Source of the DNA: Carallia brachiata
Lineage: Eukaryota > Streptophyta > Magnoliopsida > Malpighiales > Rhizophoraceae
NCBI GenBank assembly: GCA_021464245.1
Contig: JADCRB010000162.1
Location: forward strand, 903,476-967,475
Direction of reading: 5' to 3'
Length of the DNA: 64,000 bases
The notes beneath the pieces are model-generated. The model ran no database searches and was not told the DNA's origin. It was given only the letters and a program-made list of their open reading frames with translations. Below are positions 7,495-41,100 of the stretch, in pieces; position 1 is the stretch's first letter; each line of letters begins with the position of its first letter. The translations under genes were made by a program, and so were the position numbers.

Positions 7495-10184
7495 TTAGTT
7501 GTTTGAACCGCGTAGGTCAGCATAATACTTTGTGAGCCATCCATCAATAATCTCGACTTCACTTCTTCTCTGTTGGACCAACCAGTCCGGATCGGTTACA
7601 TTTGCCGGATATAGGTCCAGGCAATGAGAACCTACGCAAGGAAATTATTGCAAAATTAGAAGAGTTTCACTGAATGATAGCATTTTAGGTAGTGCTAAAG
7701 TGCGACGAGAATCATTGAAACATTTATCAAGAGCTTATAACCACGCTATTCAGATTTGAACTTTGTGGCCCTGTGCCTAAGGGTCTTTTTTTCTTTGAGA
7801 AACATAATTTAGAACCAAATTCATAAATTCCTATGAAAAGTTTGGTATTCATGCTAGGAAATGATGGAGTTGAGGGGTACCATTGGTTGTCTTAATAGCA
7901 ACAATAGTATCTGATATGTCCTCCAATACCCTGTAATTGAATTAGAACGCTTATTAAATATCTATTAATAAATAAAAAGGGTAAAATAAAGAATTTTTTC
8001 AATTTTGAAAAAAAAAAATTTCTTAATGCTTCCTTGTTTACCCGCCAATACTGTAAGGATCTCTTAGCCCGTTGGAGAAAATAATGTTGCTGCCAAAATC
8101 TTGTAGAATTGACTTTATATCCTGCAATTTGTGGCAATTAATTGATTAATTAGAGAATTAGAAAAAAATCAGGGAAAAGGAAGGAAAGACTACATCCAGC
8201 GGATGATCAATGGATAGAGCATTGTCTCAAATCAAATGACAATATGCAGATGAAGAGAGGTAGAGAAAGGTAAAGAGAGGTGGACGAAGGCCGTAGGCCG
8301 CTAGTAGTAAAGCAGCTGAACTCTTAATCAACCCTCAGTTCTGACGAACCGGAAAACAAAAATAGAGAGAAAGAGAAAGAGAAGGATTCAAGGAATATGA
8401 ATTACTTCGCCTCCATAGTAAGTAGTAACCCAATTAGGCCGAGGTGGAACACCATAAGTGGCATTGCAGCCCTCCATGAAAGCTGTCAGGTCGAAAGTAC
8501 TATTTGGGAACATGCTATGGTTCCCGGTGCTGATTGGCATTACCATTTCACTGCAAGTCTGAACACAACGAATACCCTTTAATATTCAAGCACAATTACA
8601 AATGTTAAATGGAATTTAAGGATACAAACTGCAGGTGATGGATAAGTGAGGATACAAAATATAGAGAAAGCGACCTGCCAATCCCAACCAATATAAGTTT
8701 CACTTATATCAGCAGGCTCATTAACATAGCATGGCTTTGGTCCTTCATAAGCAACAACACCCGAAAAAAGTTTGCTCAGAGTGTCATTTCCACGAGAAGC
8801 TCCATCGATGCCACTGCAGATGACTGATACCGGATATGTTGGCGGTTTGTTGTACTGCGCAGCTTGCATATACAAGCCGGCCAAATAGTATTCGAGCCCA
8901 GAAGCAGACCTCAGTGGACTAAGCAAAAGCAGGCAAGAAGATATGAGAAATAAAGGTTGTCAAACAAGTGTAATTTAGTTAAGAAGTATTAACGTTTAAT
9001 TATATGAAATATACTGTAAAAGGGTCATTTCCTGTACCTGCAAGTGTTGAATTTGTTGCTTAAGAATGAAAGACCACCAGGCTGAGAAGCAACCTTGGCA
9101 ATTTCGTCCCAAGATTGTAGTATGGTTTGATAGCAAGTTTCACTTGCTTCCTGCATAGATATGTAAGCAGCTTTGTTCAATCATATAATGGCTAAAACTG
9201 TAGAAGGCCGAATAATAATTTGAAGAGGAAAAGGATTCAGCATATTGCTCTAAAGTCTTTGGTAACTATAGAACAGTATCCGTCCTGCGGTGTCAAATCG
9301 TCAAAATATAGAATTGGAGCTGATGAAGCCAGAGCTCCAATGGCAACATGAGGGTACTTTAGCCGGAACCATGAAGCAAGCACTAGAGCAGAATAGGAAA
9401 AGAAAACTTTAAAGAGCATACCAGAAGATTGTTCATAGCACTAAAGTCTATATATGTGGAGAGAGAAGGATGGGGTAGTCAGTTAGTCACTTACTTCCGC
9501 CATATGAGCCTCCAACGACGATCACAGGAGACTTTGTAGCTTTAAATTCCGTCTTAATATGAATGAGAATTTCTGCATAGTCTGCAATAGCTTGTGCTGA
9601 ATTAAAATACCCGAGAGTGCTTGCATTTTTGTATGCTTGGTCCCATGATCCAAAGGGGACTGATTGCCCATAGTACCGATGCTTGACGTGAAAAAAGCAT
9701 ACATATATTGCAGTTTCAGATGTAAATTATGTGGAGTTCATGTGAAAAACATCGAAGTAATTGTGTTGGATTGTCATTTGCATACCTCTATATACACAAG
9801 GAGAGCTTTAAAATGGGCTGCGTTGTCTGTTAGAAACCCAATGTGGGTCAGAGCGGCGTCTAATTCCTGTTCTGCTCCTAGATAAGCCAAAATTGGTGCA
9901 CTAACATTGGCACCACCCCAGTAATTAAAATTGATCACATATCGCTGCTGGAAGGTGGAGTAGCTTTCTGGCTTATAGTTGAAGTGATCAACTGTTTGGT
10001 TGTAATGAAATGTTTTGAAATCAATGGAAATTGGCACGGATGCAGTTGTGGACTTTCGTAAAAGTATGGGCCCTAAAGGGTCCAGTTTTGGAATGTGCAA
10101 TCCGGTCCTTGTTGCAGCCACAGGGCTGAGGAGGACTAGGAAGATCAATTGAATCCATTGAAGTAGAACTAGTGGAGCATTCAT
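7495..10184 (-). CDS. S28 serine carboxypeptidase, lysosomal Pro-X carboxypeptidase-like (intact)
   Basis: Secreted or vacuolar serine peptidase of family S28, whose animal members (PRCP, DPP7) cleave next to proline. Nine exons join in phase: 10184-9786, 9681-9495, 9382-9249, 9150-9038, 8918-8675, 8558-8406, 8121-8042, 7930-7881 and 7631-7495. They give 498 residues, the normal family length. The N-terminus ([19 protein letters not shown]) is a signal peptide. The conserved core starts at [15 protein letters not shown]. The nucleophile lies in GGSYGG across the exon 2/3 junction, the catalytic Asp in SNGLRDP (exon 7), and the His in GSHCLDL (exon 9). Intron 3 begins with GC instead of GT (AGA|GCAATA); the paralogues have GT there. 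It sits between broken MLP copies. Substrate is unknown. Confidence 0.93.
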
Positions 10185-13640: not shown

Positions 13641-13733
13641 AGTTTGAACTTAGTGTAGTAAAAGTGCAATGCCACTATAATGCAGATAGGAAACCCGACG
13701 AAGCATGCATAACTTATCCTTGGCAACAACAAC
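13641..13733 (-). pseudogene. 3' fragment of the kelch-like gene split by the retrotransposon
   Basis: Reading minus from the left edge of the retrotransposon, the frame that ends at the right edge (DANVHLVVV) continues as VAKDKLCMLRRVSYLHYSG and stops about 24 codons on. Removing the element and one ACAAC copy joins the two parts without a frame change. This is therefore the other half of the gene described at 24059-24942. It shows that the insertion site was inside a coding exon or its pseudogene. Confidence 0.65.
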
Positions 13734-14569
13734 TGTAAAGCGTAAATTTCGAGTCTAAAACAATTAAACTCGAAAATACAAAAAATAAATTACAAATAAA
13801 AACTTAAAAATAAAAGAAAATTTACGTGTGGTCGATCTCCGTAGATCCTCCGATTAGTGTTCTTTTTTTGACTCCGTCAAGGGCTGCACGAGCTTAATCT
13901 TGACAGAAATAATTTCCACAGTTTTTTCTTGAACTGGGTAGACTGAAACTGAATCTGATTTGGACGTTTTGATTACGGTTAAGAACCGCAGAGACCTGAT
14001 CTGAGCCGATCTGGCTTAATTTCATCGAGAGTCGAAGGGACTTTTTCTCGGATGAACTTCCTGGATTTTGCTGAGGGCCGTATGAGACTTACTCCCAACT
14101 GGATTTGAAGCAATTTGACATTTTCAGATTTATATTCTCATAAATTCAGATCTAAGGCGATCAGAGAATATAAATTTAAAAATAACTTTGGAAATGGAAA
14201 CAACAATTTTTTTGGGCCTTACCCTGAAAATATCTCTCAAAAAGGAGTTAGGAGAGTAATACTACAGAGTAAAAGCACGTAAGAAAAGGAGAAATTTTCT
14301 TGAGAGATTTTCAAAATTTTCTTTTTCTCTCAAATTCTCTGAATTTTTCTGTTTACAGATTTGCTGAATATGTTTTGAACTGAGGGGCATGGGCCTATTT
14401 ATAGGGTTCATTTCCCATGTGAACATCACATGGGAAAGGAATCTTTTAATTATAATTTTTCCACGGTCGGCGTTGCCAACGCCGACCGTTGATTTTTTTT
14501 TTTTTTTGACTAATGACTTTCTCTAGAAGCTGACCCCTTTTTTTTTTTTTTAATTAAAACGCGTTTACA
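13734..14569 (-). repeat. 3' LTR (element sense)
   Basis: 836 bases, TGTAAA...TTTACA ends. On the minus strand it contains a TATA box (CTATAAATAG, 14395-14404). Two strong hairpins follow: 14411-14437 (12-base arms TTTCCCATGTGA, loop ACA) and 14463-14489 (13-base arms ACGGTCGGCGTTG, one-base loop). Its twin is at 23221-24058. Confidence 0.95.
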
Positions 14570-14584
14570 AATGCCCCCACTTCA
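14570..14584 (-). other. Polypurine tract
   Basis: On the minus strand TTGAAGTGGGGGCAT lies directly against the 3' LTR start (TTGTAAACG). A G-rich purine run at this point primes plus-strand DNA synthesis in LTR retrotransposons. The AAGTGGGGGCAT form is familiar from Tat-type elements. Confidence 0.75.
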
Positions 14585-14717
14585 AGGGTCGGTAAGGAAG
14601 AACTTTGCAGACGTGATCCGAACCGAGTCTTGAAGTCCAGTTTGAAACTTGGGATGTCTTGATGATCATTGAATGTTGAAACCTTTTATCTCCGGCTAGA
14701 TCTGCTTTTTTTGGATC

Positions 14718-15209
14718 TCAACAGGAAACAGATAAGAGTCTGAGAAAATTAGCAGTCCAGCCAATATAAAAATTGAAGTCTTGGCTCCATGTGAGTTCGA
14801 GCTTCCATGGCTCGCAAGGGCTGGTAAAGGTTCTTTGAAGTTCCAAAGCTCTGGTGAGGATGATCCGGTAGGCAAATAACTTGAACTTCCCCAAGAGGAA
14901 GACCCAACACCTTGGAACTTCAAGACCGGCACACAGAGAGACTGACTGTAGTGATGATTCCCAAGTCTGTTTTGACGTAAGGAGAGTAGTTGGAACTTCC
15001 CTGTACGTCGTCACATCCAAAAGAAGATTAGGATGATTGCAGCGTCTTATCCCTCTGTGGTAGATGTGAACTAAGGAGAGTAGTTGGAACTCCATGACAC
15101 CGATGTCGTTAGGGATCCTTCGAGGAAGACTACTCATTCTTTTCTTAGCTCGTGCGCCTCCAACTTCTTGATCAAAGAACTTCCTGTGACAAGTGCAGAG
15201 ACTAGCCAT
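14718..15209 (-). CDS. Unassigned ORF (163 aa) between the WOX-like ORF and the 3' LTR
   Basis: An open frame of 163 codons in element sense, starting MASLCTCHRKFFDQ. I do not recognise any domain. The start is followed by a basic stretch (GARAKKRMSSLPRR). An overlapping frame in 14696-14932 is serine/glycine-rich (GSSSWGSSSYLPTGSSS) and reads more like a transcription-factor tail, so a frameshift inside one original gene is possible. A TATA-like run (TATGTATATATATCC on the minus strand, about 15266-15280) precedes it. A run of 19 A residues (minus strand, 15308-15290) lies further upstream. It could be non-coding. Confidence 0.3.
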   Translation of the reverse strand: MASLCTCHRKFFDQEVGGARAKKRMSSLPRRIPNDIGVMEFQLLSLVHIYHRGIRRCNHPNLLLDVTTYREVPTTLLTSKQTWESSLQSVSLCAGLEVPRCWVFLLGKFKLFAYRIILTRALELQRTFTSPCEPWKLELTWSQDFNFYIGWTANFLRLLSVSC

Positions 15210-15398
15210 TTTCTTTTGAGAAGAAGAAGAACTGAGGGGTAAGTATTATAACTCTGACAAGCAGGATATATATACATAACATACAGAGGTTTTTTTTTTT
15301 TTTTTTTTGAAAAGTCAAAAAGGAGGTACGCAGAATTGAGTAGGGTCATCCACGTCCCTTTCTTGCACAAGAGACAAAAGATGCAGCGACTGACTCGT

Positions 15399-15508
15399 GT
15401 TACGAAAGTCGTTACCGTGTGTTGCAGAAGTCGTTGCCGTGTGCTGCAGAAGTTGTTGTCATGTGCTGCAGAAGTCGTTGCCGTGTGCTGCCAAAGTCGT
15501 TGCACCTT
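15399..15508 (+). repeat. 22-bp tandem repeat, five copies
   Basis: Units start at 15399, 15421, 15443, 15465 and 15487, each close to GCTGCAGAAGTCGTTGCCGTGT with a few substitutions. The array lies in the extra DNA of the retrotransposon, downstream of the WOX-like ORF in element sense. The period is not a multiple of three, so it is not a protein repeat. Confidence 0.85.
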
Positions 15509-15679
15509 ATCTTGTCGGCTGTCCTAGTGGGGCTCGAGGCGCAGCTCCAAGTCAAGCTCGACCTCGTCTGGTGGGCCAATGATGTTGACGTCGCTTTCCG
15601 GCTGGTTGATGCTGCCGGAATATTCTGGAAAGAGAGACAAAGTTTCGCCGGAATAACTCTTTTCTGCTAGAAAAAGTCC

Positions 15680-16135
15680 TCATAGACTTAAGTACCTAGG
15701 AGGGATGAACCTTTGACTGACTCCATAAGACCACCAGGACCTGTACGCATGCTCCCACAGGCTACTGCTTTGATCTTTATAGCCTGAAGAGACCATTGCA
15801 GTGGTAGAACTCGGACCTGCTTCATTTGAGGGCGAAGGTGTACCGATAGGATCTAATATCGGAATGGCAGACTGTTCTTTAGAAAAAACAGCTCTCAGTG
15901 CTGGTTTATTCCTGATTCTCCGATTCTGGAACCAATAAAACACATTTTTTCCTTCGATTGCCCCGAGCGGGCACAATCGCGAGACAAGTTGGTAAATCTG
16001 AGATGCATTAGGCATAATACCTCCATTGTTGTGTAAAACTTCCTCCAAAATTTGCAGTTGTGCCATGGTTGGTTGCCATCTTGTGCGGGGTGACTTTTCT
16101 TCTCCTTTGTCTTGAGGTTCTGCAACTGGTTCCAT
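15680..16135 (-). CDS. WUSCHEL-type (WOX) homeodomain ORF inside the retrotransposon
   Basis: An uninterrupted 151-codon frame in element sense, starting MEPVAEPQDKGEEK. Residues 17-82 form a homeodomain of the plant WOX class: RWQPT at the start of helix 1, LQILEEV, then IEGKNVFYWFQN in helix 3, followed by RRIRNK. The FYWFQN signature and the longer-than-canonical loops are diagnostic for WOX proteins, and the Asn of WFQN needed for DNA contact is present. The rest (residues 83-151) is serine/proline-rich and shows no WUS box or clear EAR motif, so it would be a short WOX protein. No intron is visible, although WUS-clade genes usually have one or more. It lies between integrase and the 3' LTR, where Tat elements can carry extra ORFs. 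Gag-pol is broken but this frame is not. Whether it is expressed is unknown. Confidence 0.85.
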   Translation of the reverse strand: MEPVAEPQDKGEEKSPRTRWQPTMAQLQILEEVLHNNGGIMPNASQIYQLVSRLCPLGAIEGKNVFYWFQNRRIRNKPALRAVFSKEQSAIPILDPIGTPSPSNEAGPSSTTAMVSSGYKDQSSSLWEHAYRSWWSYGVSQRFIPPRYLSL

Positions 16136-16222
16136 TTTTCCTGTGGCAGAGGAGCAAAGGTCTGGTGTGTGGTGAAGATCGGTTGAGACTGATGTTGAGT
16201 TTCAGACTCAAACCCTCCGTCG

Positions 16223-16230
16223 CTTTTATA
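16223..16230 (-). promoter_or_regulatory. TATA-like box upstream of the WOX-like ORF
   Basis: On the minus strand AATATAAAAGCG stands about 90 bases before the ATG at 16135, with a C/A-rich leader between them. The spacing suits a plant promoter, which would let the ORF be transcribed independently of the LTR. It is a sequence match only. Confidence 0.4.
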
Positions 16231-16264
16231 TTTTTGGGCCGTTCACAGTTTATACTCATGCGGG

Positions 16265-16510
16265 CCAGGAGTTGGATTGGATTTTGAACTTGGGTTTTGG
16301 ATTGTGTCGGGAACTTGGAATTTTTGGCTTTTGGGTTTTGGAATGGATTTGGGTCGAGTGTTTGGGCCTCTAGACTTGGATTTTGTGATTTGGGTTTTGG
16401 ATTTGGATTTAGTTTTCAGGCTTTTGAGTTGGACTCTGAATTGGATTCAAGTGTTTGGGTTTGGATTTTCGCTTGGTCTTTCAGATCGGGACTTCGTAAA
16501 TTTTTTTTTT
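16265..16510. repeat. Degenerate TTGGGTTTTGGA-type tract
   Basis: The plus strand is a run of T/G-rich near-repeats (TTGGATTTTG, TTGGGTTTTGGA, TTTGGGTCGAG) with very little A or C. It separates the end of integrase from the WOX-like ORF. No coding frame here resembles a protein. Confidence 0.5.
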
Positions 16511-16531
16511 TGATTTTTTTTTAAAACATAT

Positions 16532-17620
16532 TTACACATAATACTGTTTCAGAAATTTACCATTGATTGGGCCGATTCGGACGCCTTCTTGGTCTGACAG
16601 CATATAAGCGTTGTAAGTGTAGGCCTCCTGCACTAAGTATGGTTCGTCCCATTTGGAAGTAAGCTTGTTACCAGGCCGATGCTTCATGTTGATGGGCCGT
16701 CGTACTGTAAGAACAAGGTCTCCAACTTGAAAAGATCGAGGGCGGACCCTGCGGTTGAATGTTGGTGAGCCGGGCTTGGTAGCACTCAAGTTGCTGTTGT
16801 GCTTCGAGCCTCCTTTCATCGAGGCTTCTAACTCATCCAGACGTAGGCGAGCATTCTCCTCCTGTGTGAGTCCTTCCAGAACAGCCATGCGCAGGATGGA
16901 ATCTGTGTTTCCAACGGCAGTATTGCTTCGACACCGTAGACAAGTGAGTATGGCGTCGCCTGTGTTGGAGTCCGGTAAGTTGTACGATACGCCCATAATG
17001 CCTCCGGAATTCTGTCATGCCAATCTCTTTTGGATTTAGAGACTACCTTCCGCAACAGGTTGCATAAGGTCTTGTTGAATGCTTCGGCCAAGCCATTTGC
17101 TGGGGCATTGTACATGGATGACTTGTACTGCTTGAACTTGAACTTCTCGCAGAGCTTGTCGATTAAGCTGTTGTAGAACTGCTTACCATTATCAGTGATG
17201 ATGAATCGAGGGACTCCATAGCGATAGATCAGCTGAGTCCGGATGAAATGAAACATGCTCCTTCTTTACCTCTCTAAGTGGAATGGCTTCAGCCCATTTT
17301 GAGAAGTAGTCGGTTGCTGCGAGGATGTACAGGTGACCCAGGGATGACTTTGGCAAGGGCCCCACTAAGTCGAGACCCCAAGCTTCAAAGGGCCAGGATG
17401 AGACAGTTGGATGCAGTGGCTCCGGTGGTTGATGTATGTAATTGGCATGAAATTGACAAGCTTGACAAGTTTTAGCAAACTCAATGAATCACGTACCATG
17501 GTTGGCCAGTAGTATCCCATCCTTCTGAGTTGGAAGTGCAACTTAGGCCCGATTGATGTCCGCCACAAACACCAGAATGTGCTTCAGCGAGAGCCTGTTT
17601 TGCCTCTTCATTGCTAGGCA
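16532..17620 (-). pseudogene. Retrotransposon integrase (frameshifted)
   Basis: Integrates the cDNA copy into the genome. In element sense: a zinc-binding segment with CQACQFHANYIHQ, then the catalytic core with the first Asp in AATDYFSKWAEA, the second Asp in FIITDNGKQFY, and the Glu in GLAEAFNKTL (usually GQAEAFNKTL). The C-terminal part has SFQVGDLVLTVRRP and ends GKFLKQYYV at 16532. The pieces lie in different frames, with shifts near 17.56, 17.25 and 16.85 kb, so no full protein can be made. Confidence 0.88.
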
Positions 17621-17889
17621 GCGAAGTAAAACTCCATCAAAAGACCTTCGATACAGAGCATCCTTGAGATATATGAAGCGGGGAGCTCGTCGTTGAATTT
17701 CTGTCTTATGACGACGATCTTCGGGCAGCTTCCCGTGCTGTAGGTAGTCAATGATTGGTTGCGCCAATCCTCGTCCTCCGCGAGACGTACAGATAGCGTT
17801 GGCTGCTGTAGTTTCTTCATCATCCTTTGTGGCACTATCCATTTCTGCATACGGCAACAACTGTAGCCTGGATTTCTGACTTTGCAAGA

Positions 17890-18290
17890 GGTGGCCAGGT
17901 TAGCCAACGCGTCTGCCTGAGTGTTTTCTCGTCGAGGCACATGCTCCAAGGTGATGCTTTCAAATTCATCCATTAGCTGTCGAGCACGTTGATGGTAAGC
18001 GCAAGGTCCTCTTTCTTCACATCATACAATCCTGTAAGTTGGTTGATGACGAGCTGGGAATCTCCATGGACTTCTATAGTTGGAATCTTCATATCGACAG
18101 CCATTTGAAGACCAATGATCAAAGCCTGGTATTCAGCAACATTATTTGAACATAACTCACCGAGAATGATAGCATATGGTAGTATTTGTCGTTGAGGAGT
18201 GACAAACACTATGCCGGCACCAGCACCATCACGCCTTGCTGCACCATCAAAGAACATCGTCCATGGTGGTAGTGTCTCAATGTAAAAGAC
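17890..18290 (-). pseudogene. Second (archaeal-type) RNase H domain
   Basis: Encodes WTMFFDGAARRDGAGAGIVF, then NNVAEYQALIIGLQMA, EVHGDSQLVINQL and the distal HVPRRENTQADALANLA. The conserved D...E...D...D pattern of plant Tat-element second RNase H is visible. Its presence next to the standard RNase H is the main reason for the Tat lineage call. A frame change near 17973 splits off the last part. Confidence 0.85.
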
Positions 18291-18329
18291 CTCTTCATCT
18301 GGAAGATCATCTGTGAACTCCCAATCTGA

Positions 18330-18950
18330 CGGAATAGGGTGATCTGCAAGGAAGTCTGCTAGAGCTTGTCCTTTGACTGCTTTTTGAGGCACGTAGACAA
18401 TGTCGTAGCTTTGTAGGATTACTGCCCACTTGGCAAGTCGTCCTGACAAGATTGGTCTAGATAAGATATATTTGACAGGATCAGCTCTGGCAATGAGACG
18501 TACCGTGTGAGCTTGCATGTAGTGCCTCAGCTTGTCAATGGCAAAGAACAGTGCTAGACATGTCTTTTCAATGGGCGAATAACTCAGCTCCGGACCGTTT
18601 AGTGTTCTGCTCAAGTAGTACAGGGCAACTTCCTTTCCCTGCTCTTTTCCTGTGCAAGCAAGGCTCCCAAAGATCTTTCCTGCGCTGCAATGTAGAGAAT
18701 CAACGACTTTCCTTGAATTGGAGCTCCAGGACGGTGGATTGGAAAGGTACTTCTTTATGCTCTCAAAGGCTTTGCTGCAAGCTTCGTCCCACTCGAAGTT
18801 GACATCCTTCTTCATCAACCGATGGAAAGGTTGACATCTCCCAGCTAAATTGGAGATGAAACGGCGAATGTAGGCCAGCTTTCCTTGTAGACTTCGCAGC
18901 TCGTGCAGGTTTTTAGGTTCAGGCATCTTTTGAATTGCCTCAACCTTTGA
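18330..18950 (-). pseudogene. Reverse transcriptase thumb and Ty3-type RNase H (frameshifted)
   Basis: Starts with the connection segment (LQGKLAYIRRFISNLA and FEWDEACSKAFESIK), then the RNase H core with YYLSRTLNGPELSYSPIEK and LAKWAVILQSYDI. A frameshift lies near 18.72 kb, where the expected first catalytic Asp region reads out of frame. The frame from 18983 to 17973 is otherwise long and open. Confidence 0.85.
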
Positions 18951-18954
18951 CTGA

Positions 18955-19520
18955 TCAACTTCGATTCCACGATGGCGCACCACGAACCCAAGAAACTTTC
19001 CTGATGTGACACCGAATGCACTTGAGAGGGTTCATTTTGAGCTGATGCCTCCGAAGTCTTTCGAACACTGTCTTGAGATCCTCGAGGTGGTCTTTGCGCT
19101 TCTTAGTCTTTACAACTAAGTCATCAACATAACATTCTACAATCTTGTGCAGCATGTCATCAAAAATTTTTTGCATAGCACGTTGATAAGTGGCGCCAGC
19201 ATTTTTTAATCCAAACGGCATAACTTTGTAGCAGTATATACCTTTTGGGGTGCGGAATGCTGTCAACTCCTCGTCTTCTGGTGCCATTCTGATTTGGTTA
19301 TAGCCTGAAGAACCATCCATGAAGACAATGCTTCGTGACCCGTTGTTGCATCGACTGTGATCTCCGTTATGGGCAACGGAAAGTCATCTTTCGGGCAGGC
19401 CTTGTTAAGATCTCGAAAATCAACACATACCCTCAACTGTCCATTCTTCTTTCTTACGGGACAATGTTGGCAATCCACGTTGGGTAGGTGACCTCTCGGA
19501 TGAAGCCGGCATTGATCAGC
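18955..19520 (-). pseudogene. Retrotransposon reverse transcriptase
   Basis: RT motifs in order: VCVDFRDLNKACPKDDFPLP, DGSSGYNQIRMAPEDEEKL-like sequence, FGLKNAGATYQRAMQ, and the active site ECYVDDLVVK. A frameshift near 19.32 kb separates the first motif block from the rest. The family is Ty3/gypsy. Confidence 0.9.
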
Positions 19521-20277
19521 TTGTTAACCTCCTCCTCGATTTGTGGAATGAGTTCCGGGCGGAACCGTCGTTGTGGCTGCTTGACAGAACGACACCCTTC
19601 TTTACTAGACGATGCACCGCAATTTTTGGGTCAAGTCCAGGCATTTTTGTAACTCCATGCGAACACGTCCTGTATTGACTTAATACCTGAACATATTCTT
19701 GCTCTTCTTCTGCAGTAAGTAAAGCACTTACAAATGTAGGTCGAGGATCTTCCGGAGAGCCAAGATTGACCTCCTTGAGTTCATCAACAGTTGCTTGGCC
19801 ACCATCTTCAAGTTCCGGGGGAGCCTCCTTCACTTCACCATCTGATGAGTCGGAATCAGCCTCCTCGCTAATTGTGACATGAAATGCAGAACCTCTGACT
19901 TCACCTTCTTTGTTTGACTGGATAAGCCTGTCTTGTTTGGTGGTGGTGGTGATGGCACGTGCATCAGCTGCTCGGCTTCGGCTCTTTAGCGTGATCCGCA
20001 CAGGTGACTTCTCCTGATAGCCTAAGCCAGGTCGGGACTGTGATGTTTGAGAAGCGGCGCCATGTGTGGACGGCAGCGTACCCATTGTGCTCGGGTTTGA
20101 GAAGTCATAGCCCGCCTTTGCCAAAAGCTTGTATGCATTAGGATCAAATCCTTCATGTGTTCTTCTTTCTGGAAGTGAGCCGCCTTCGACTGCCCCCGTG
20201 TGTGGTTTGACGAAGCCTTTTAATGGTTTTGGACAAAACCGGCTCAATCTTTGGTATCGGCAGAGTGTAAGTCTCCT

Positions 20278-20960
20278 TCAGGTTGTGCAGCTCCTTTTTT
20301 TGGGTTGGCTATGTCCTTGCTCCTGTTTAAGATCAATACAATAAGAGAAAGGGGGTTGACCTTCTGAGCGTCGTGACTTCGGCACATAGCGTAGGACTGG
20401 AGTGGAGCTTGAAGATGCAACATCCTTCGGACGAAGTTCAGCAGGCTGTGGCAGCTTTTCATTTGTTGGAGCCTGGGTTGGCATTGGCAGGTTCTTCGAC
20501 AGCTTTTCCCTTTTTGTGGATGCCCCCAGTCCAAGTAGCTTTTGATGGAATGATCTCGGATTGTCTGTGTCGGTGTAGAAGACTGCATCCGCCAAATGTG
20601 ATTCAGCATCATCGAACGGCTTTAAGTCAGCATTGACCTTTTGAACGCCACCATTGTAGTACTTGAAGCACTGATGCAGGCTTGAGAGCACAACTCCATT
20701 TCCATGAATCCACGGTCGTCCTAGCAACATCTTATATGTGGTACGTGCATCAATCACGTGAAATAGAGTGCTAGAAGTGAGATTACCGATAGTTAGCTCC
20801 AAGCGAATCATCCCAATTGCTTTCTGTCCTCCTTGATTAAAGCCATGAATCATCAGCGGCTGTCTGATAATTCATCAACCGATGCCGAGCTCCTTTATGG
20901 TGGATTTTGGGATAATATTGACTGCTGAGCCATCGTCGATCAGAATACGTCGGACCTTCT
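20278..20960 (-). pseudogene. Retrotransposon aspartic protease region
   Basis: In element sense ILIDDGSAVNIIP carries the catalytic Asp-Gly-Ser of retropepsins (about 20940-20900). It is followed by stop codons, then by LELTIGNLTSSTLFHVIDA and YKMLLGRPWIHGNGVV, the usual distal protease block. The stops at about 20873 show that the polyprotein frame is broken. Confidence 0.8.
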
Positions 20961-21239
20961 GTTCTCTCACATAGCCTGATACATACAGCGGCCGATTGTG
21001 GGGTTTGGACCCCAGCAGGAGATCCTCATCTGAAAATGAGATAGCAGAGTAACATCCGACGTGATTTTGGTCCGCCTGTTGCTCCGCTGAGTTAGAATCA
21101 TTTGATGGCTTGATTCAGCTGAGGTCTGGAGAGTATTGCTGACTTGATTTTGCCACACTTCTGTTGATTGCAAAGCTATAAACAGCTGAGGGTTAGCGAG
21201 AAGGGTTTGGAGAGCTTCATATACCTTCTCCGTTGTCGA

Positions 21240-22975
21240 CTTTTTGTTGTCGAGCGGCTCCTCCTTACGGTGTGTCACCTCTTCTGATGGTTTTGAAGTG
21301 ATGGTGGTCTGGTTTGCGAGGTTATGCCTTCCTGGTCCAGAATGATTTTATTCTGGCTTTTGAGCTTCATGATTAGCTCCTTCAGGACGAAACACTTCTC
21401 GGTTGGATGACTTACTATCCGGTGATATTTGCAGAATCTCGGATCGCTGACTCGATCCTTTTCATTCGGCCGCTTGCACTCTGGGAGTTCGATCAGCTTC
21501 GCCTCCAAGAGTTGTTCAAGAATGTCGGGGACGTCTGAGTCGGGGAATGGATACTGCTTTGCTCCAACTCTCGCAATGTCACCTTCCGCCTTTCCTGTTG
21601 TTTTGGCTGAGTTATTTGGGTCGGAGGATTTACCTTAGCTTTGGCGCCCACTTTTACTGGTGCGGCTTCAACAGTCATCACTTCTTTCCTTTTCCGGACT
21701 GTTGGGTTTCTTAATCTCCCTTCTGCCCCCTTGCTGGTCCAACTGGATGGGAACCGTGCCTCCGGAAGTCTGGATGCTTATCTCCATATCATGTGCGCGG
21801 GTCGCCAGTTCTTCGAAAGTTCGGGGTTTGACACCCTGCAGGATGTATAACAGCTCCCAATGCATTCCCTGGATGCACTCTCCACGGCAGAAGTCTCCGT
21901 CAGGCGATCTTTGCAGTCCAAGCTGAGGGCACGCCATCTGTTGATGTATTCGACAACGGGCTCTCCTTTCCTTTGTTTGGTGCTGGTAAGCTCCATCATA
22001 CTTACCGTCCTTCGAGTGCTGAAAAATCTGTTGAGGAACTCTCGTTGTAGCTGTTCCCAACTGTCGATCGATTCTGGTTCAAGATTTATGAACCAGGTGA
22101 AAGCGGTCTCCCTGAGTGAACGAACAAACTGCTTCACCAAGAGATCTCCGTAAGTCCCTGCGTTGTTGCAGGTTTCAACGAAGTGGGCGATGTGCTGTTT
22201 GGGATCGCCTCGTCCGTCGAATTGTTGAAATTTGGGCGGCTGGTAGCCCAAGGGCATGTTGAGACTTTCGATCCGTCTGGTGTACGGTTTGACGTACATC
22301 TGTGATCCTTGGAAGGATGTAGCTTGTTGCAGTCGGATCGTATTGGCTATCATTTCCTGCAATTGTTGAACAGATAGCGAAGCTACAGAATTTGAGGGTG
22401 GCAGCTGTGTAGAACTACCTGGTCGCTTTTCTGCAGGGAAGACGTCGGCTGGTGTGGCTTCTGGAGTGAAACCGGGTGGATATGGTTGCTCCTCGCGGAT
22501 TTCGGGATCAACTTGGATCGGGGCTTTTCCTTTGAGAGCGGCGATCTGTTGATCTTTTTCCTCCACGACTCTGATCAGCTGCAAAATTTTGTTCTCCAAT
22601 TCTGAAATCTTTCCTCTGTGCTGGTTGTGTTGGTCATCATGACGGCAACAGATGAGGCTCCGGGAAAGACTGGGGGAGAAACTCTTCTGATTCTTCTGTG
22701 TGAGTCGGATTTTGTTGAGCAGGCTTCGTCGTGTTGCCCCCGACTTCGATCGGGGTGGGTGATCGACTCCTCCATGCGGCAAGAGAGTCAGGGGAGAGAT
22801 CCTGTTGTGCGAGCTGTGGACTCTCCATTTCGACATTTTGTCGGGTTTGGACGGCAAGAAATTGTGTCCGTCCCCGGGTTTCTGGACCTGCGTACCCAGG
22901 TAGGGTAGTTGATGCAGGCAGTGGAGCCGTTGCCTTCTTTTTTGTGGCAGCAGTTGTACTCCTTTTCGGTGCCAT
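21240..22975 (-). pseudogene. Retrotransposon gag
   Basis: Begins at the ATG at 22975 (MAPKRSTTAATKKK). The capsid block is at about 22.2-22.0 kb, with [20 protein letters not shown] and [15 protein letters not shown] zinc-knuckle-like CKYHRIVSHPTEKCF lies near 21.43 kb. Three frames are needed to read it through, so it is inactive. Its order before protease and RT is standard. Confidence 0.85.
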
Positions 22976-22997
22976 TTGATGTGCTGAACACCTGTAA

Positions 22998-23101
22998 AAT
23001 TTTTTTTTTTTTTTTTTTTACTTTTTTACTTTTTACTTTTTTTTTTACTTTTTACTTTACTTTTTTTACTTTTTTTTATTTTTTTTACTTTTTTTTTACT
23101 T

Positions 23102-23134
<33 letters not shown>

Positions 23135-23172
23135 CTCTCGGCTCCCCTTTTACCTTTTTTTTTTTTTTTAAG
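22998..23172. repeat. Poly-T/TTTTTAC low-complexity tract
   Basis: A run of T interrupted by ACT, between the primer binding site and the gag start. In element sense it is an A-rich leader (AAAAAGTAAAAAGT). No coding content. Confidence 0.8.
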
Positions 23173-23194
23173 GAACAAGAGATGGGAGGTGAAG

Positions 23195-23220
23195 TTGTCC
23201 CACCGAGCGTGCCAAAAATT
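23195..23220 (-). other. Candidate primer binding site
   Basis: Immediately inside the 5' LTR the element reads TTTTTGGCACGCTCGGTGGG. A TGG...-type site two to six bases after the LTR is where a tRNA 3' end primes reverse transcription. I did not identify the tRNA. The sequence differs from the common initiator-Met site. Confidence 0.6.
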
Positions 23221-24058
23221 TGTAAAGCGTAAATTTCGAGCCTAAAACAATTAAACTCGAAAATACAAAAATAAATTACAAATAAAAATTAAAAATAAAA
23301 GAAAATTTACGTGGGGTCGATCTCCGTAGATCCTCCGATTAGTGTTCCTTTTTTGACTCCGTCAAGGGCTGCACGAGCTTGATCTTGACAGAAATAATTT
23401 TCACAGCTTTTTCTTGAACTGGGTAGACTGAAACTGGATCTGATTTGGATGTTTTGACTACGGTTAAGAACCGCAGAGACCTGATCTGAGCCGATCTGGC
23501 TTAATTTCACCGAGGGTCGAAGGGACTTGTTCTCGGATGAAGTGTCTGGATTTTGCTGAGGGCCGTATGAGGCTTACTCCCAGTTGGATTTGAAGTAATT
23601 TAATATTTTCAGATTTATATTCTCATAAATTCAGATCTAGGGCGATCAGAGAATATAAATTTAAAAATAATTTTGGAAATGGAAACAACAATTTTTTTGG
23701 GCCTTACCACTTAAATATCTCTCAAAAAGGAGTTAGTAGAGTAATATTACAGTGTAAAAGCACGTAAGAAAAGGAGAAATTTTCTTTAGAGATTTTCAAA
23801 ATTTTCTTTTTCTCTCAAATTCTCTGAATTTTTTTGTTTACAGATTTGCTGAATATGTTTTGAACTGAGGGGTAGGGGCCTATTTATAGGGTTCATTTCT
23901 CATGTGAACATCACATGTAAAAGGAATCTTTTAATTATAATTTTTCCACGGTCGGCGTTGCCAACGCCGTCCGTTGATTTTTTTTTTTTTTTTACTATTG
24001 ACTTTCTCTAGAAGCTGGCCCTTTTTTTTTTTTTTTTTTTTATTAAAACGCGTTTACA
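23221..24058 (-). repeat. 5' LTR (element sense)
   Basis: 838 bases, matching the other LTR along its whole length with scattered substitutions and small indels. The TATA box (CTATAAATAG on the minus strand, 23880-23889) is conserved. Both hairpins seen in the 3' LTR are here partly spoiled by substitutions. Confidence 0.95.
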
Positions 24059-24942
24059 ACAACTAGATGGACATTTGCATCGTCAGGGAAACAAAGAACA
24101 TATGGAACTTCAACTGGAGGGAAGCGCTTTCTTTGGACAAGATCGAAGGCCGATAGGCGCAGAACATCACCAGCGTAATAAAAATAGAGAACGTGATCGT
24201 CTGAGAACACATAGGCATCATGATATTCATATCCATGATCAACAACATCTCCATCATGATAAAGGGACCACTTGTAGGGCAATGAATCATGGAAATATAA
24301 GCGGTTGTACCAAAATGCCACCCCTTATAACCAACAATAGCCCAAGGATAAACACTGGAAGCATCAAGTGGAGGATCAAGGGAATAGGGCATATACTTTT
24401 TATCAGCATGGAATACGTAACCACATGGTGGCTCTGGTTGCTCGCGCATATCATCATCACAGTCACCAAGAATGACACAGATCCATGGACCAGAAGCTGC
24501 CGAGGAAGCTGCCGTGATTGCTCGGCAGCAAGGGAATGGCAATAAAAGGAAAATTTTTCAGCCAGCAGCTGAATCATCAGAGCTTTTGACGTCCAGATAT
24601 CGGATGACATTGGAATAGCTCTCCTTGTAAGGCTCTGAGTCATTGGAGCCACCAATGAGATAAAGGGTCGAGGAACCGACAAGTACACAGTTTGAAAGCG
24701 TGAGACCAGTGTCTGGATTATGGGGTGCTTTCTTCTCAAAGACTGGGGACATTTTGGAAGTTCTTCCACCGCTGGATCCGATCACGTACCTACGGTTTGT
24801 CGTGGAGCCTCTTGCAGAACTGTTGCTCGCAGGGGCCCAAAAGTTAACATATATGGACTTCTCTTCCTGCTCCTTTTATCTCTATCTCTTTCTCCGATGC
24901 CGCGGCCGACGATGAGGCAGAAGCCATATTTGAGATCGACAT
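24059..24942 (-). pseudogene. Kelch-like (galactose-oxidase-type) gene, 5' part, cut by the retrotransposon
   Basis: Minus-strand reading from the ATG at 24942 (MSISNMASASSSAAAS) gives coding-like sequence in three pieces. The first shifts frame near 24.86 kb. The second holds LSNCVLVGSSTLYLIGGSND and NVIRYLDVKSS, which resemble a kelch blade, but meets TGA at 24558. The third shifts near 24.31 kb into YKWSLYHDGDVVDHGYEYH and VLYFYYAGDVLRLSAFDL. It ends at the retrotransposon border, and its frame resumes at 13733. So the locus was hit both by small lesions and by a 10-kb insertion. The kelch assignment rests on the GG and YxLDV patterns only; other beta-propeller families are possible. Confidence 0.6.
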
Positions 24943-27414: not shown

Positions 27415-28130
27415 TTTTTATGAGAATATTCATGTTTTGAATTATTTGGATTTTAGGTCATTTCGATTTTAAATCATAGTTTATCGAATCTTTAGTTAAT
27501 ATGGGGCAAATCAAACCAAATTTTAAGTAGTTTTAGTTGAATTATTTTGTTCGGTCAGCTGTTCTGCCTCTAATTTTAAATTTTAGGGTGGCATTGGATT
27601 TTGCACCATGGTATGAGAACTTTCTGCATCTTTGTACGTGTGCATTTGACATCTTCCACTTTAAGTCCTCGATTAAGCAATGTGCCAAATGGGTCTAATA
27701 TGTTAGCTTTGACTATATCAATTAATTTCAATTGTGACAATTGCCAATCGCATGTAGATCAGATTAAAAAATGAAAAGGGCATATGCAGTATGATATCAT
27801 CCAATTAATAACAATACCCAAGCCTGACTCAAAATAACTTGGGTTTTGGTTCGGTGTGACATTTCCTAACGAAGTTTTAGTAACGAGTCAGCATATACCT
27901 GCGTGATGGTTAGAAAATTGAATAGCATTCTGAGAATTTCTTTAGAATTAAATTCAGTTTATATGCATGCACCACTCAACCTTCGGCCAATCAATAAAAT
28001 TTTCTTCTTCTACGCATTGACATAGCATTTTCATTAAATTGTTGTGTAAAAAACTAGTTTTGTGCAAAGACCAAATCAAAACAATCTGATGGCATGGCAC
28101 TATCACCAGTAGAAGACTAAGAATTATGTG

Positions 28131-28140
28131 CTATATTTAT
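28131..28140 (+). promoter_or_regulatory. TATA box of S28 gene 2
   Basis: CTATATTTAT, 65 bases before the ATG at 28205. The same motif and surroundings recur on the minus strand near 40551-40560 in front of the S28 pseudogene, so the core promoter was duplicated with the gene. Confidence 0.55.
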
Positions 28141-28204
28141 GTGGGTATGTTAGGCACAAAGCTTTCATGGGAAAATCTTAAAACACTTGAGCGAATTAGC
28201 TACC

Positions 28205-31200
28205 ATGAGCTCAAAACTTCCATTTCAATGGCTTTCACTCATATTGCTACTCCTAACTTTTTCAAACAGTATTACCACAAGTAATTCCGCCGGCACCCCA
28301 TTTCCGCAGTTTAGTCCTCTCCTTCGCAAAGTCCGTCGATACCCTCAGACCGCACCGGCAACCACTGCAAAGGACTTCAAGACATTTTATTATACACAAA
28401 CACTTGATCACTTCAACTACAGGCCTGAAAGCTACGTTACTTTCAAGCAAAGATATATCATTAATTTCAAGTACTGGGGTGGTGCTGATGCAAGAGCACC
28501 AATCTTTGTCTATATGGGTGCAGAAGAACCACTCGATCAGGATGTGCCTATTATTGGATTTCTCACTGATAATGCTGCTCAATTCAACGCTCTACTTGTG
28601 TATATTGAGGTAATTATAATTGATTATTCATTTACAACTTACATATGTGACATATTACTATTTAACATGCCGGATATGACATAGATATTGCACTTTGTTT
28701 AGCTAGATGCTGCACTATTTGAGTTCTATTATTTGAAAAAGAAGTGTAAGGGCCTGATCTTTCGTTTTGGTGTTTTGTTGGGAAGTGCTAAGTTCTATTG
28801 CATTTTACTTAGAGATACTATGGATAAAATTAATAATACCAGTTTGAAAAAGAAAAAGGAAACACTCATTCTGACATGCTACCAAGAACCAATAATTTAC
28901 GCCACTGGAGGCAAAGAAAAAGATGGGGAGAAAAAAATTGATTGGGAGCGAAACAAAAGTAAAATAGCAGCAACATTATAAGACCAAATTTGAATTTCAG
29001 TTGGAATTTGCCCTCACTTATATGTATGCGGCCATGCGATTCCAAGCAATGCAAGCATCCACATGCATCCAAGTACTAATTACATGCATATGCATCGAAG
29101 GGCGTAATTAATATTTGAGTTACAATACAATATTACTGTTAAATGTAAGCGATATCATATATATGCACCATTTTCTGTAGGAAAGCCTAAGTGTCTATGT
29201 CTATTACTTTTTATTTTCTTCTTCCGTTTACTTTTCCGGACTTTTTTTTTTTGTTTGAATTATGAAGATTGTGGTCTCCATCTCCCTCTCTTTAAAACTC
29301 ATTTGAGAAACAAAAGCCATATGTATCTCACGTAGGAATGCTGAAGTCGTACCTTAATGTTCTATGGTAACTTTCTTAATTCTCATAAATTTTATATATC
29401 ATTCTTAATAAATTAGAATTAAAGAGCTCTAAATATAAAAATTTAAATTCATAATTAATGAGGTGTCTTTAAAGAACCATGAATGGCGCTTTATAAATAT
29501 ATATTAGAAACTCAAACCGTTGACTTATTCTATTCTTATATATAATTAATTGACCGCCATATAGTTTCCTTCAAGTTCAAGTCATGCTTCTTTGCTTATT
29601 TAGGATGTCTAATACTTTTGATTTTATAATTGATAGAATATTCCCATATTTATTATAAAAATTACTGTAATTTTATAACGGTCTTTTAGTTTATCATTAT
29701 TTATTAAGAACATATCGACCTTGCGGTTTCACGTTAAGAAGTTATTTTCTTTTATCCCATAAATTTATTTTGCATCATCTAATGAATTCGAATCTAAGAT
29801 CATCCGTTTGAATTCCACAGCATAGATTTTATGGAAAATCAGTACCATTTGGATCATTTACAAAGGCCCTAAACAATGCAAACCTCCGTGGCTACTTCAA
29901 CACCGATCAAGCATTAGCCGATTATGCGATCGTTCTGTTATATCTCAAGAAGAAGCTAAATGCACATTATTCTCCGGTGATAGTTGTCGGAGGATCATAT
30001 GGGGGTTGTAAGTACAAAGTCAACCTTTTACTTTTCACATCCTCCTCCATATTTAATTTGACTACTACCAAAGTTTTTAGCTTAAAATTAACTATCCAAT
30101 TAATTGATTTTCTTTGTTGCTATACATAATTAGGCCTTGCTACATTTTTTCGGCTAAAATATCCCCATGTTGCTCTTGGAGCTCTAGCATCATCAGCTCC
30201 AGTTCTTTACTATGTGGATGTAACGCCTCCTGATGCTTACTATTCGGTGGTCACCAAGGATTACAGAGTAATATTTCAACCTTCATTCATCAAAATCAAC
30301 TGCATACGCACACACACGCACTTGTATGCGGTAAAATATTATTAATTCTGATAATTTACTATTGCACGCATGCAGGAAGCCAGTGAAACCTGCTACAAAA
30401 CCATACGAGAATCATGGTCTCAAATTGATAAAGTTGCCTCGCAGCCGAATGGTCTTTCGATACTTAGCAGGATGTTTAAGACTTGCTTGTAAATGCACAT
30501 ACAAACGTATCTTTTTTTTTCATAAGATTTTTTTTCCCCCGAACGGCAATTTTTTTTTAATCATTTGAAACTGGTAGTCCAGTAATTAAAAGATGAGAAA
30601 AAAGAAAGGGACTAGAGTTCGAACTGCAATCCCTTATTTGAAGGTCACTGAATCATCGACAAAATTTTTATTAAGTAGCAAAAAATGCCACAAAAACCGA
30701 ATAAATATGTTAGATGCAGCCGGCCAGAAAGATTACACGACATATTTTTCATAAAGCCAAGAAGAATAAGAGTGTTAATTTGAACAAGACTAAAATCACA
30801 AGGACAAGATTTGATTGTATAAAATATCTTATTTCACTAAGCCATTCACATCAAAATTAGAAAACCTAACTTACCTTAATTGGGTATATATTGTACTACT
30901 TAATGGATTTTCAACTTAAATGTTAATTTCTTGTTTTTGTTTTTGTTTTTTTTTTTAATAGTCCCTTGAAGAATTCTTCTGGGCTCAAGGACTTCCTAAA
31001 GAGTGCATATGTTCAGGCAGCTCGATATGATAGACCGCCAAACTATCCAGTGAATGCAATTTGCAATGCGATAGATGGAGCTGCTGCTGTTGGTGCCAAC
31101 CATATTCTGGAAAAAATATTTGAGGGTGTTGTTGCATTTGCACAATTATTCACAGATGCTGCTGGTAATATTAAAAATAACACATGCTACATCAATCCAC

Positions 31201-39700: not shown

Positions 39701-40491
39701 CATCACTTACTTGGGCATCGCCGTGTCAAAAAGGTAAGTCTAGTAGTGGGACTCAAATTAATTATAGCGAAAAGCAAAATCAATCAAAGATTTGAAGTTT
39801 TAATAATTGTATGCCTATAATTTCATATGGAAAATGGTACAAGCGAAGTTCTAACGACTGATTGCATGTATCGAATAATGCTTTCGTGACGTCATGAGGC
39901 ATGTCGTGCATAATGCCATGAAAGCAGTTGTTATTTAAAGTTAACAGATGCATTGATTAATATATTTATGATGTATTTTTCTCTAAATAAAAAAAAAAAA
40001 AAGTCTTCGTATGCTTTCATGACATCATGAGGCATGTCAAAGAGTAATATGTCGCGCAAGTTGCAAATAAATATAATTTACCTCAATATACACTAGGAGA
40101 GCCTTGAATTGAGCAGCATTATCAGGGAGAAATCCATGTTAGGCACATCTGATCCAGTGGATTTTCTTCACCCATATACACAAAGATTGGGGCTCTTGCA
40201 TCAGCACCACCCCAGTACTTGAAATTAATGATATACCTTTGCTTGAAGGTGGTGTAGCTTTCAGGCCTGTAGTTGAAGTGATCAAGTGTTTGTTTATAGT
40301 AAAATGTCTTGAAGTCCTTTGCATCGGTTGCCGGCGCTGTCTGAGGGTGTGGCTGGACTTTGAGAAGGAAATGACTAAGCCGCGGAAATGGGGTGCCTGA
40401 GGAATTACTTGCGGCAATAATGTTTACAAAGTGAAGAGTAGCAATGTTAGTGGAAGCCATTGAAATGGAAGTATTGAACTCATGGTAGTTA
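36793..40491 (-). pseudogene. S28 carboxypeptidase pseudogene (gene 3)
   Basis: All nine S28 exons can be found, with [14 protein letters not shown] and GSHALD still present, but the frame is broken repeatedly relative to gene 2. In the signal peptide a one-base deletion and an in-frame TAA follow [14 protein letters not shown]; an alternative ATG further in ([11 protein letters not shown]) restores the frame for exon 1. Near the end of exon 1, after NPLDQ, two single-base deletions lead to a stop. In exon 5 one base is lost after INPP. At the start of exon 8 two bases are missing. In exon 9 two further single-base losses give an early TGA. Splice sites look normal. The many independent lesions make an assembly error an unlikely sole cause. 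Confidence 0.9.
39473..39498. repeat. (CA)n microsatellite
   Basis: Thirteen AC units, in intron 1 of the S28 pseudogene. Confidence 0.95.
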
Positions 40492-41100
40492 ATTAATCGG
40501 CTCAAGTGTTGAGATTTCCACGGGAAAGCTTTGTGCCTAACACACCCATATAAATATAGCACGCAATATTACTTAGTCTTCCAGGCAGGGCCACGTCGTC
40601 ATATTGTTTTGATTTGGTCATGGCACAAAACTAATTTTTTTTACAAAAATATAATGAAAATTTGATGTCAATGCGCAGGGCAAGAAAATTGTATTGATTG
40701 ATTGGATCATTGAGTGGTGCTTGCATATAAACTGGCTATATTTGTAAAGAAATGTTTTTAGAAGATGAGTTTTACTTGAGATTCTAAGCATTATGCAGGT
40801 ATATGCTGAATTGCTGATTGAGTCTAATAGTTTGTTACGAAATGTCACACCAAATGAAAAACTCAAGTTATGATATCATATTATATATGTGCTCTTCAAC
40901 ATTCTTTAATACAATAATTGAATATCCGTCCAGCACCTGTTACAATTGAAATTAAATTAACGCAGTCAAACTAACATATTAGACTCAATTGGCACATTGC
41001 TTAATTGAGACTTAAAGTGGAAGATCTCAAATGCACATGACCAAGTTATCATATACCATGTTCTAAATTCTGATACGACTCTAAAATTTTAATCATTTGA

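Follow-up and report, generated by a model that had tools for sequence, protein, structure and literature searches.

Many-copy retrotransposons of the Tat type that carry an extra ORF (aORF) between pol and the 3' LTR have been described, among them Grande, RIRE2 and Retand, and the aORFs named in the available parts of these reports run antisense and are without known relatives outside transposons (PMC11963269; PMC7264820). Plant domains, DNA-binding and hormone-related ones included, are found as cargo as well: an AlkB (2-ODD) domain, an RNA demethylase, was captured by Phalaenopsis Gypsy elements and fixed in a Tat-related lineage, and LTR elements of the Gypsy group contain the B3 domain in Aegilops tauschii and the YgdH domain, otherwise found in LONELY GUY, in Citrus, so far as the accessible part of the source describes them (PMC9289625). 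In maize, the LTR element Bs1 holds a transduced host gene sequence in sense with gag-pol (PMC7264820, seen in part), and transduced ORFs of this kind are present in one or few copies according to the available text (PMC7264820; PMC11963269). The element that we describe here likewise has its extra gene between pol and the 3' LTR and is present in many copies. In contrast to the Tat aORFs, its gene runs in sense and is a recognisable host developmental gene; the cargo is a transcription factor rather than a demethylase; and unlike the transduced ORFs it sits in hundreds of places and contains a constrained domain. Gypsy elements with additional regulatory domains are already known (2-ODD/AlkB, B3, YgdH), while WUSCHEL (WUS) as cargo appears to be new: neither homeodomain, homeobox nor WUSCHEL occurs as a word in the main texts, supplements apart, of the three reports cited above, and the titles and abstracts of openly available papers listed by literature searches yielded no report of a WUS gene in a retrotransposon.

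The window, that is, the whole 64,000-nucleotide stretch of Carallia brachiata DNA that we analysed, contains an element for which an earlier note had claimed matching LTRs, a perfect target duplication and a WUS-type gene placed between integrase and the 3' LTR in sense with gag-pol. All of this was borne out. The element (13734-24058, minus strand) is a Ty3/gypsy retrotransposon of the Tat type with two RNase H domains, a feature reported for Tat elements (PMC9289625, available in part). Comparison of the LTR pair placed the 5' LTR, with CTATAAATAGG, at about 23221..24058 and the 3' LTR at about 13734..14569, both on the minus strand; the two are 94.3% identical (K2P 0.0535), and the 5-bp duplication ACAAC can be read from the flanking sequence on the left (13729..13733) and on the right (24059..24063). 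Within these borders, all on the minus strand, lie a presumed primer binding site after the 5' LTR (TGGCACGCTCGGTGGGAC; 23197..23214), gag (Retrotrans_gag; 21781..23025), reverse transcriptase (RVT_1; 18958..19383), the RT-linked RNase H together with a second RNase H of the RVT_3 type (17976..19031), the integrase C-terminal region as two overlapping frame pieces with weak Pfam rve and SH3 matches (16535..17265), and a polypurine tract region before the 3' LTR (GAAGTGGGGGCATT; 14570..14583). RT_RNaseH and RVT_3 are both found in one frame, and gag, RT, the two RNases H and the weak integrase match are all positioned upstream of the WOX ORF on the strand that it uses. The LTRs, the 5-bp target duplication and the gag-RT-RNase H-integrase order make up a Tat-type layout, and the gag-pol region of this particular copy is broken at many places. 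Strings similar to the presumed primer binding site were found in four other copies; in Ogre, the corresponding site matches tRNA-Arg (PMC9289625, available in part). A protein database search recovered relatives of the RNase H region in many plants, the best of them being 70% identical (Cucumis melo); one database protein labelled Serratia marcescens (P0167) is 52% identical to this region of the plant element and is probably a contaminated or mislabelled record.

The ORF that first drew attention to this element (15680-16135, minus strand, 151 aa) matches the Pfam Homeodomain family with E=1.7e-10, and the solved structures that it matches are two, WUSCHEL (1.7e-16) and STENOFOLIA (1.5e-14). 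An AlphaFold model of the 151 residues has a mean pLDDT of 68 that rises to 93-95 in blocks of residues 21-70, and the first 11 Foldseek matches of this model are WUS homeodomain and STENOFOLIA chains. Pfam, the structure matches and the alignment agree on a homeodomain at residues 18-77 (15905..16084, minus strand) that includes the WUS-type insertion of one residue. Hence the WOX character claimed for the ORF stands, while its reported extent does not. The ORF ends at a premature TGA of the window copy (15680..15682, minus strand), and the frame beyond it stays open to a TAG (15524-15526), spelling on the way a WUS-box (TLSLFP; 15626..15643, minus strand) and an EAR-like motif (LDLELRL; 15536..15556, minus strand). 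The true gene is about 50 codons longer than the 151-aa ORF, with the repressor motifs in the extension; it comprises 203 codons plus the TAG (15524..16135, minus strand), and in other copies it is uninterrupted with 203-212 aa, as in L002, which ends GETLPLFPEYSSSINQPESDVNIMDPPDEVELDLELRLGPR. We considered an intron within the gene of the window copy and dropped this idea since other copies read through in the same frame. When the 153-base tail was shuffled 200,000 times, WUS-box and LxLxL arose together once, the WUS-box alone 17 times and LxLxL alone 5638 times. Across all six frames of the whole window, the WUS-box pattern is found a single time. These shuffles, the Pfam and structure matches and the retention of conserved columns described below rule out a chance ORF.

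How far the motifs are kept can be seen in the copies that we fetched. An ATG, the homeodomain and a box-like motif follow each other without interruption in 10 of 51 loci, and eight of these ten read TLPLFP or TLSLFP, the other two PLPLFP and TLPLLS. When all frames of 75 loci are considered, 45 show TLPLFP as the box hexamer, 2 show TLSLFP and 15 another form, and none was found in 13; put differently, an exact TLPLFP, TLSLFP or TLHLFP is present in 48 and a deviating form in 14. The EAR-like string, again in any frame and with deviating forms included, is present in 69 of the 75. One young group has lost the EAR frame in four of its six copies, and in one of them also the WUS-box, so that the C-terminus may be partly dispensable. 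Four loci (L046, L058, L059, L060) have GAT as the first codon of the extra gene where others have ATG; in L058-L060 the frame is otherwise open, and the start would have to lie elsewhere.

We searched the genome (337.5 Mb, 164 contigs) for relatives of the ORF and found at least 150, scored out of 2041 first-look candidates. The 150 scored matches cover 143-151 of the 151 residues at 81-100% identity, the 100% match being the window itself; by hand count, 53 of them contain a stop within the match and 97 do not. A 33-base homeodomain signature, with up to three mismatches allowed, marks 800 places (376 + 424), not all of which are whole genes; the reversed pattern used as a control marks none, and the nine fetched WOX loci of the host differ from the signature at 5-9 bases, so that none of them contributes to this number. 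The suggestion that a stem-cell DNA-binding domain has been spread through this genome is thus supported. Of 51 loci, 40 are preceded by an integrase on the same strand, and in 26 (hand count) the 1.5 kb fetched downstream include an LTR match of 90 bp or more, a count based on the two best matches per locus with shorter ones, mostly T-runs, left out. Starting from the opposite end, we picked 12 integrase loci without a known ORF partner from 150 rows among the matches listed for an integrase search; the ORF follows downstream in 12 of 12, mostly as frameshifted pieces. The PPT-LTR junction is present in all nine other copies whose ends were examined; both outer ends could be resolved in two of these, each with a perfect duplication (TCCAG, CTTCG), and the fetched 5' piece of three (L014, L026 and the C47 copy) gave no LTR match. 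Collectively, these data establish the extra gene as a fixed part of a large element family. A neighbouring host gene is thereby rejected, since the ORF sits in elements at other sites and the WUS genes of the host lie elsewhere; so is an assembly chimera, as the arrangement is repeated on many contigs. The conditions that the earlier note had set for its own refutation, a lack of further copies with the ORF together with the lack of a homeodomain match, or else a chimera, did not arise. A nested insertion that brought WUS along was likewise discarded: the inverted repeats around the ORF amount to two imperfect pairs of about 20 bp, and the arrangement is family-wide. Scans of viral contigs found nothing.

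Judged by its sequence characters, the extra gene is a WUSCHEL derivative. This assignment is based on the WUS-box and the EAR motif in the full ORF in combination with a one-residue homeodomain insertion, which the alignment places after helix 1. Within the WOX family, this insertion is WUS-specific according to the available part of a structural study (PMC7203112); a loquat survey, seen in part, likewise reports it for no subgroup other than WUS, confines the EAR motif to the WUS and WOX5 subgroups and finds the WUS-box in the WUS clade alone (PMC9669421). The element protein shares with the two WUS proteins of the host (L031, L032) and that of Arabidopsis (P0022) the insertion, the WUS-box TLPLFP, an EAR-like LxLxL motif and a MEP start. 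It is shorter (203-212 aa versus 293 in Arabidopsis WUS), and its gene is mobile, multi-copy and without intron; the homeodomain is about 48% identical to that of Arabidopsis WUS, and the end of the recognition helix reads RRSRKK in most copies shown where WUS has HKARER. The inserted residue is His in the ten copies shown, versus the tyrosine (Y54) of Arabidopsis WUS. No acidic run was found before the WUS-box in the element copies compared, while the host WUS has one; grass WUS proteins also lack the acidic region (PMC9669421, available in part). The residues of WUS reported to contact bases (R38, N90, R94) and to form the dimer patch (I66, F85, Y86; PMC7203112, PMC8329861, both seen in part) align to R19, N71 and R75 and to I47, F66 and Y67, all of which are present. 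Wherever the 75 loci are readable, N71 is invariant (60 of 60) and R75 nearly so (58 of 60); in the remaining 15, the pattern was not found whole.

Homeodomain trees group the element-borne domain with the modern WOX clade (support 97/97 and 97/88 in two trees); in the second, a long stem of 1.13 changes per column leads to a short crown. Which member of this clade was the donor, a question that the earlier note had referred to a WOX phylogeny, is not settled by these trees: the nearest row in one of them is WOX3 (55% identity); in one topology test, the groupings with WUS (p-AU 0.18), just outside the modern clade (0.37) and with three outer rows (0.38) are all retained; and for the second tree, p-AU is 0.27 for WUS and 0.12 for WOX3. 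In neither case is the WUS grouping the best tree. It is the WUS-specific characters that point to WUS as the donor. The reading frame of the host WUS stops between the homeodomain and the WUS-box, from which we infer an intron at this place, and the element gene has none. Looking for a captured WUS promoter, we found only a 16-bp match to L031 on the opposite strand (E 4e-4) and a 10-bp match to L032. Protein database searches gave 13 and 47 matches that are named as, or look like, ordinary plant WOX proteins, none being recognisable as a transposon copy in records that do not show genomic context. Three WUS-like proteins, from Ipomoea and unnamed (P0008, P0010, P0011; 159-207 aa), are short, fast-evolving and similar in size to the element-borne protein; the branch of P0008 has a length of 0.73 in the homeodomain tree.

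Copies of the element gene differ from each other in a manner that reveals purifying selection on the homeodomain. Among 11 uninterrupted copies, pN/pS is 0.151 for the homeodomain (codon bootstrap 0.063-0.316), 0.52 for the N-terminus (0-1.43), 0.62 for the linker, 0.65 for the C-terminal part (0.352-1.278) and 0.46 for the whole, with intervals that are too narrow because pairs of copies share history. The 51 loci that include decayed ones gave 0.183 (homeodomain), 0.600 (linker) and 0.546 (C-terminal part), and 18 long ORFs, a few of which begin in the wrong frame, yielded 0.112 (homeodomain) and 0.725 (rest). The integrase, used as a control, has a pN/pS of 0.749, a weak control as many of its alignments cross frameshifts. 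Of the 24 columns that never vary among 33 modern WOX rows, 21 are kept, as compared with 10 of 35 variable columns that equal the majority residue. When neutral decay was simulated up to the divergence observed for the homeodomain, 36 or 13 runs out of 1000 ended with no more than one stop, and none of 1000 did so free of indels. Decay since the insertion in the window predicts 0.71 stops, which fits the one seen, but leaves zero indels in only 10% of runs.

Upstream of the gene, 50 of 51 copies share a TATAAAA some 95 bp ahead of the ATG, the presumed core promoter (16224..16230, minus strand, in the window). The block from -140 to -21 is conserved at 0.94-0.98, equal to the coding sequence, whereas the spacer before -181 varies between 0.33 and 0.82. 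Given this difference, the extra gene looks like a separate transcription unit with its own putative promoter. These data bear directly on the notion that the captured gene is useless to the element and merely carried along. Many decayed copies, the weakly constrained linker and C-terminus and the loss of the EAR frame in four of six copies of one young group would be expected of such a passenger; a homeodomain pN/pS of 0.15-0.18, a promoter block so much better conserved than the spacer before it and the ORF downstream of every one of the 12 independently picked integrases would not, and we regard this notion as quite improbable. Constraint might instead have been inherited: a fast-evolving WUS paralogue, constrained as a host gene, could have been captured shortly before the present spread. 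The long stem and short crown, which indicate either a capture much older than the present copies or fast protein evolution, fit this proposal. Against it, no intermediate is found among nine modern-clade WOX loci located elsewhere in the host, two WUS genes and seven others, that are among the 134 scored matches listed for a WUS search; moreover, selection is visible also between element copies, meaning that constraint continued after capture. We consider divergence before capture to be improbable, if a shade less so than a useless passenger.

With a rate of 1.3e-8 substitutions per site and year, the insertion in the window dates back about 2 My. There are younger copies: the LTR alignment of one has 7 mismatches (and 19 gap openings) in 830 columns, that of another 10 mismatches in 688. 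Six copies form a group in which 7 of the 15 pairs are free of mismatches over about 814 bp, with the ORF whole in every copy. Near-identical copies such as these indicate that the family moved recently with the extra gene aboard, as the earlier note had surmised.

What might such a gene do for the element? The motifs kept in many copies and the kept contact residues make a short WUS-like repressor the natural reading. We propose that, long ago, a Tat-type Ty3/gypsy retrotransposon captured a WUSCHEL transcript as spliced RNA, and that this sequence settled between integrase and the 3' LTR as a stable extra gene, which would be transcribed from its own TATA promoter. Its product would be a short nuclear repressor whose homeodomain may bind WUS-type sites and whose WUS-box and EAR motif may recruit TOPLESS; in Medicago WUS, these two motifs do so together (PMC6305195, available in part). 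Most likely, the element would use this protein in trans on host meristem genes. We assign this reading as a whole a probability of about 0.5, the less constrained C-terminal part, the EAR losses, the missing acidic region, the non-tyrosine insertion, the absence of WUS-site enrichment in the LTRs and spacer, trees that leave the donor unplaced and the many broken copies all speaking against it.

Instead of imitating WUS, the protein might work against it. With DNA binding kept and the acidic region lost, it could act as a decoy, either in competition with the WUS of the host or by sequestering TOPLESS, and so loosen host control, for example the repression of transposons. The lack of an acidic stretch before the WUS-box, in which it departs from the two host WUS genes, the far stronger constraint on the homeodomain than on the rest of the protein and the change from HKARER to RRSRKK are compatible with a decoy, which we nevertheless consider unlikely: the WUS-box is readable in 62 and the EAR motif in 69 of 75 loci, and a pure DNA decoy needs neither. 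The chromodomains of chromoviruses offer a precedent for the targeting of integration, and an element that encodes a DNA-binding domain might similarly use it to guide integration or else to control its own LTR. This we find very unlikely. Instead of being fused to integrase, the gene stands as an independent ORF behind a promoter block of its own, and WUS-type motifs in the LTRs and the spacer of the window occur at the level of shuffled sequence, without enrichment, which disfavours an element that acts on its own LTR.

Plants set no germline aside early, and heritable transposition must occur in the shoot meristem or in gamete lineages. A repressor acting in trans on host meristem genes could keep or imitate the stem-cell state in the lineage that gives rise to gametes, and new insertions would then be inherited. 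Only tentatively, and with the odds somewhat against it, do we extend our proposal to an element family that encodes its own stem-cell factor, a selected and separately transcribed WUSCHEL derivative acting on the shoot stem-cell niche in favour of heritable transposition. If true, plants would have an equivalent of the oncogenes captured by retroviruses; taken together with the LONELY GUY-type YgdH ORFs reported from Citrus elements, this would suggest that Tat elements in general pursue control of the meristem. A selected WUSCHEL derivative on a mobile element in any case turns the direct manipulation of stem cells by a plant transposon into a testable question. With a developmental DNA-binding domain present in hundreds of copies, this genome may also give rise to new regulators and to small RNAs directed against WUS, and its annotation may come to list false WUS genes.

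Several further features of the window were recorded. The interval that separates the extra gene from the 3' LTR contains a second ORF of 163 aa (14718-15209, minus strand), whose frame gave no Pfam match. A tandem array with a 22-bp unit (15406-15503; 4.5 copies, 86% matches) is found just downstream of the extra gene, and a T-rich array of the TTTTTACTTT type (23000-23134) between the primer binding site and gag. Outside the element, inverted duplicate blocks that are 78-88% identical mirror each other from about 27.6 to 41 kb (27639-28625, 40066-41037), with a weaker copy near 9783-10022; their translations resemble serine carboxypeptidases of the Pro-X type.
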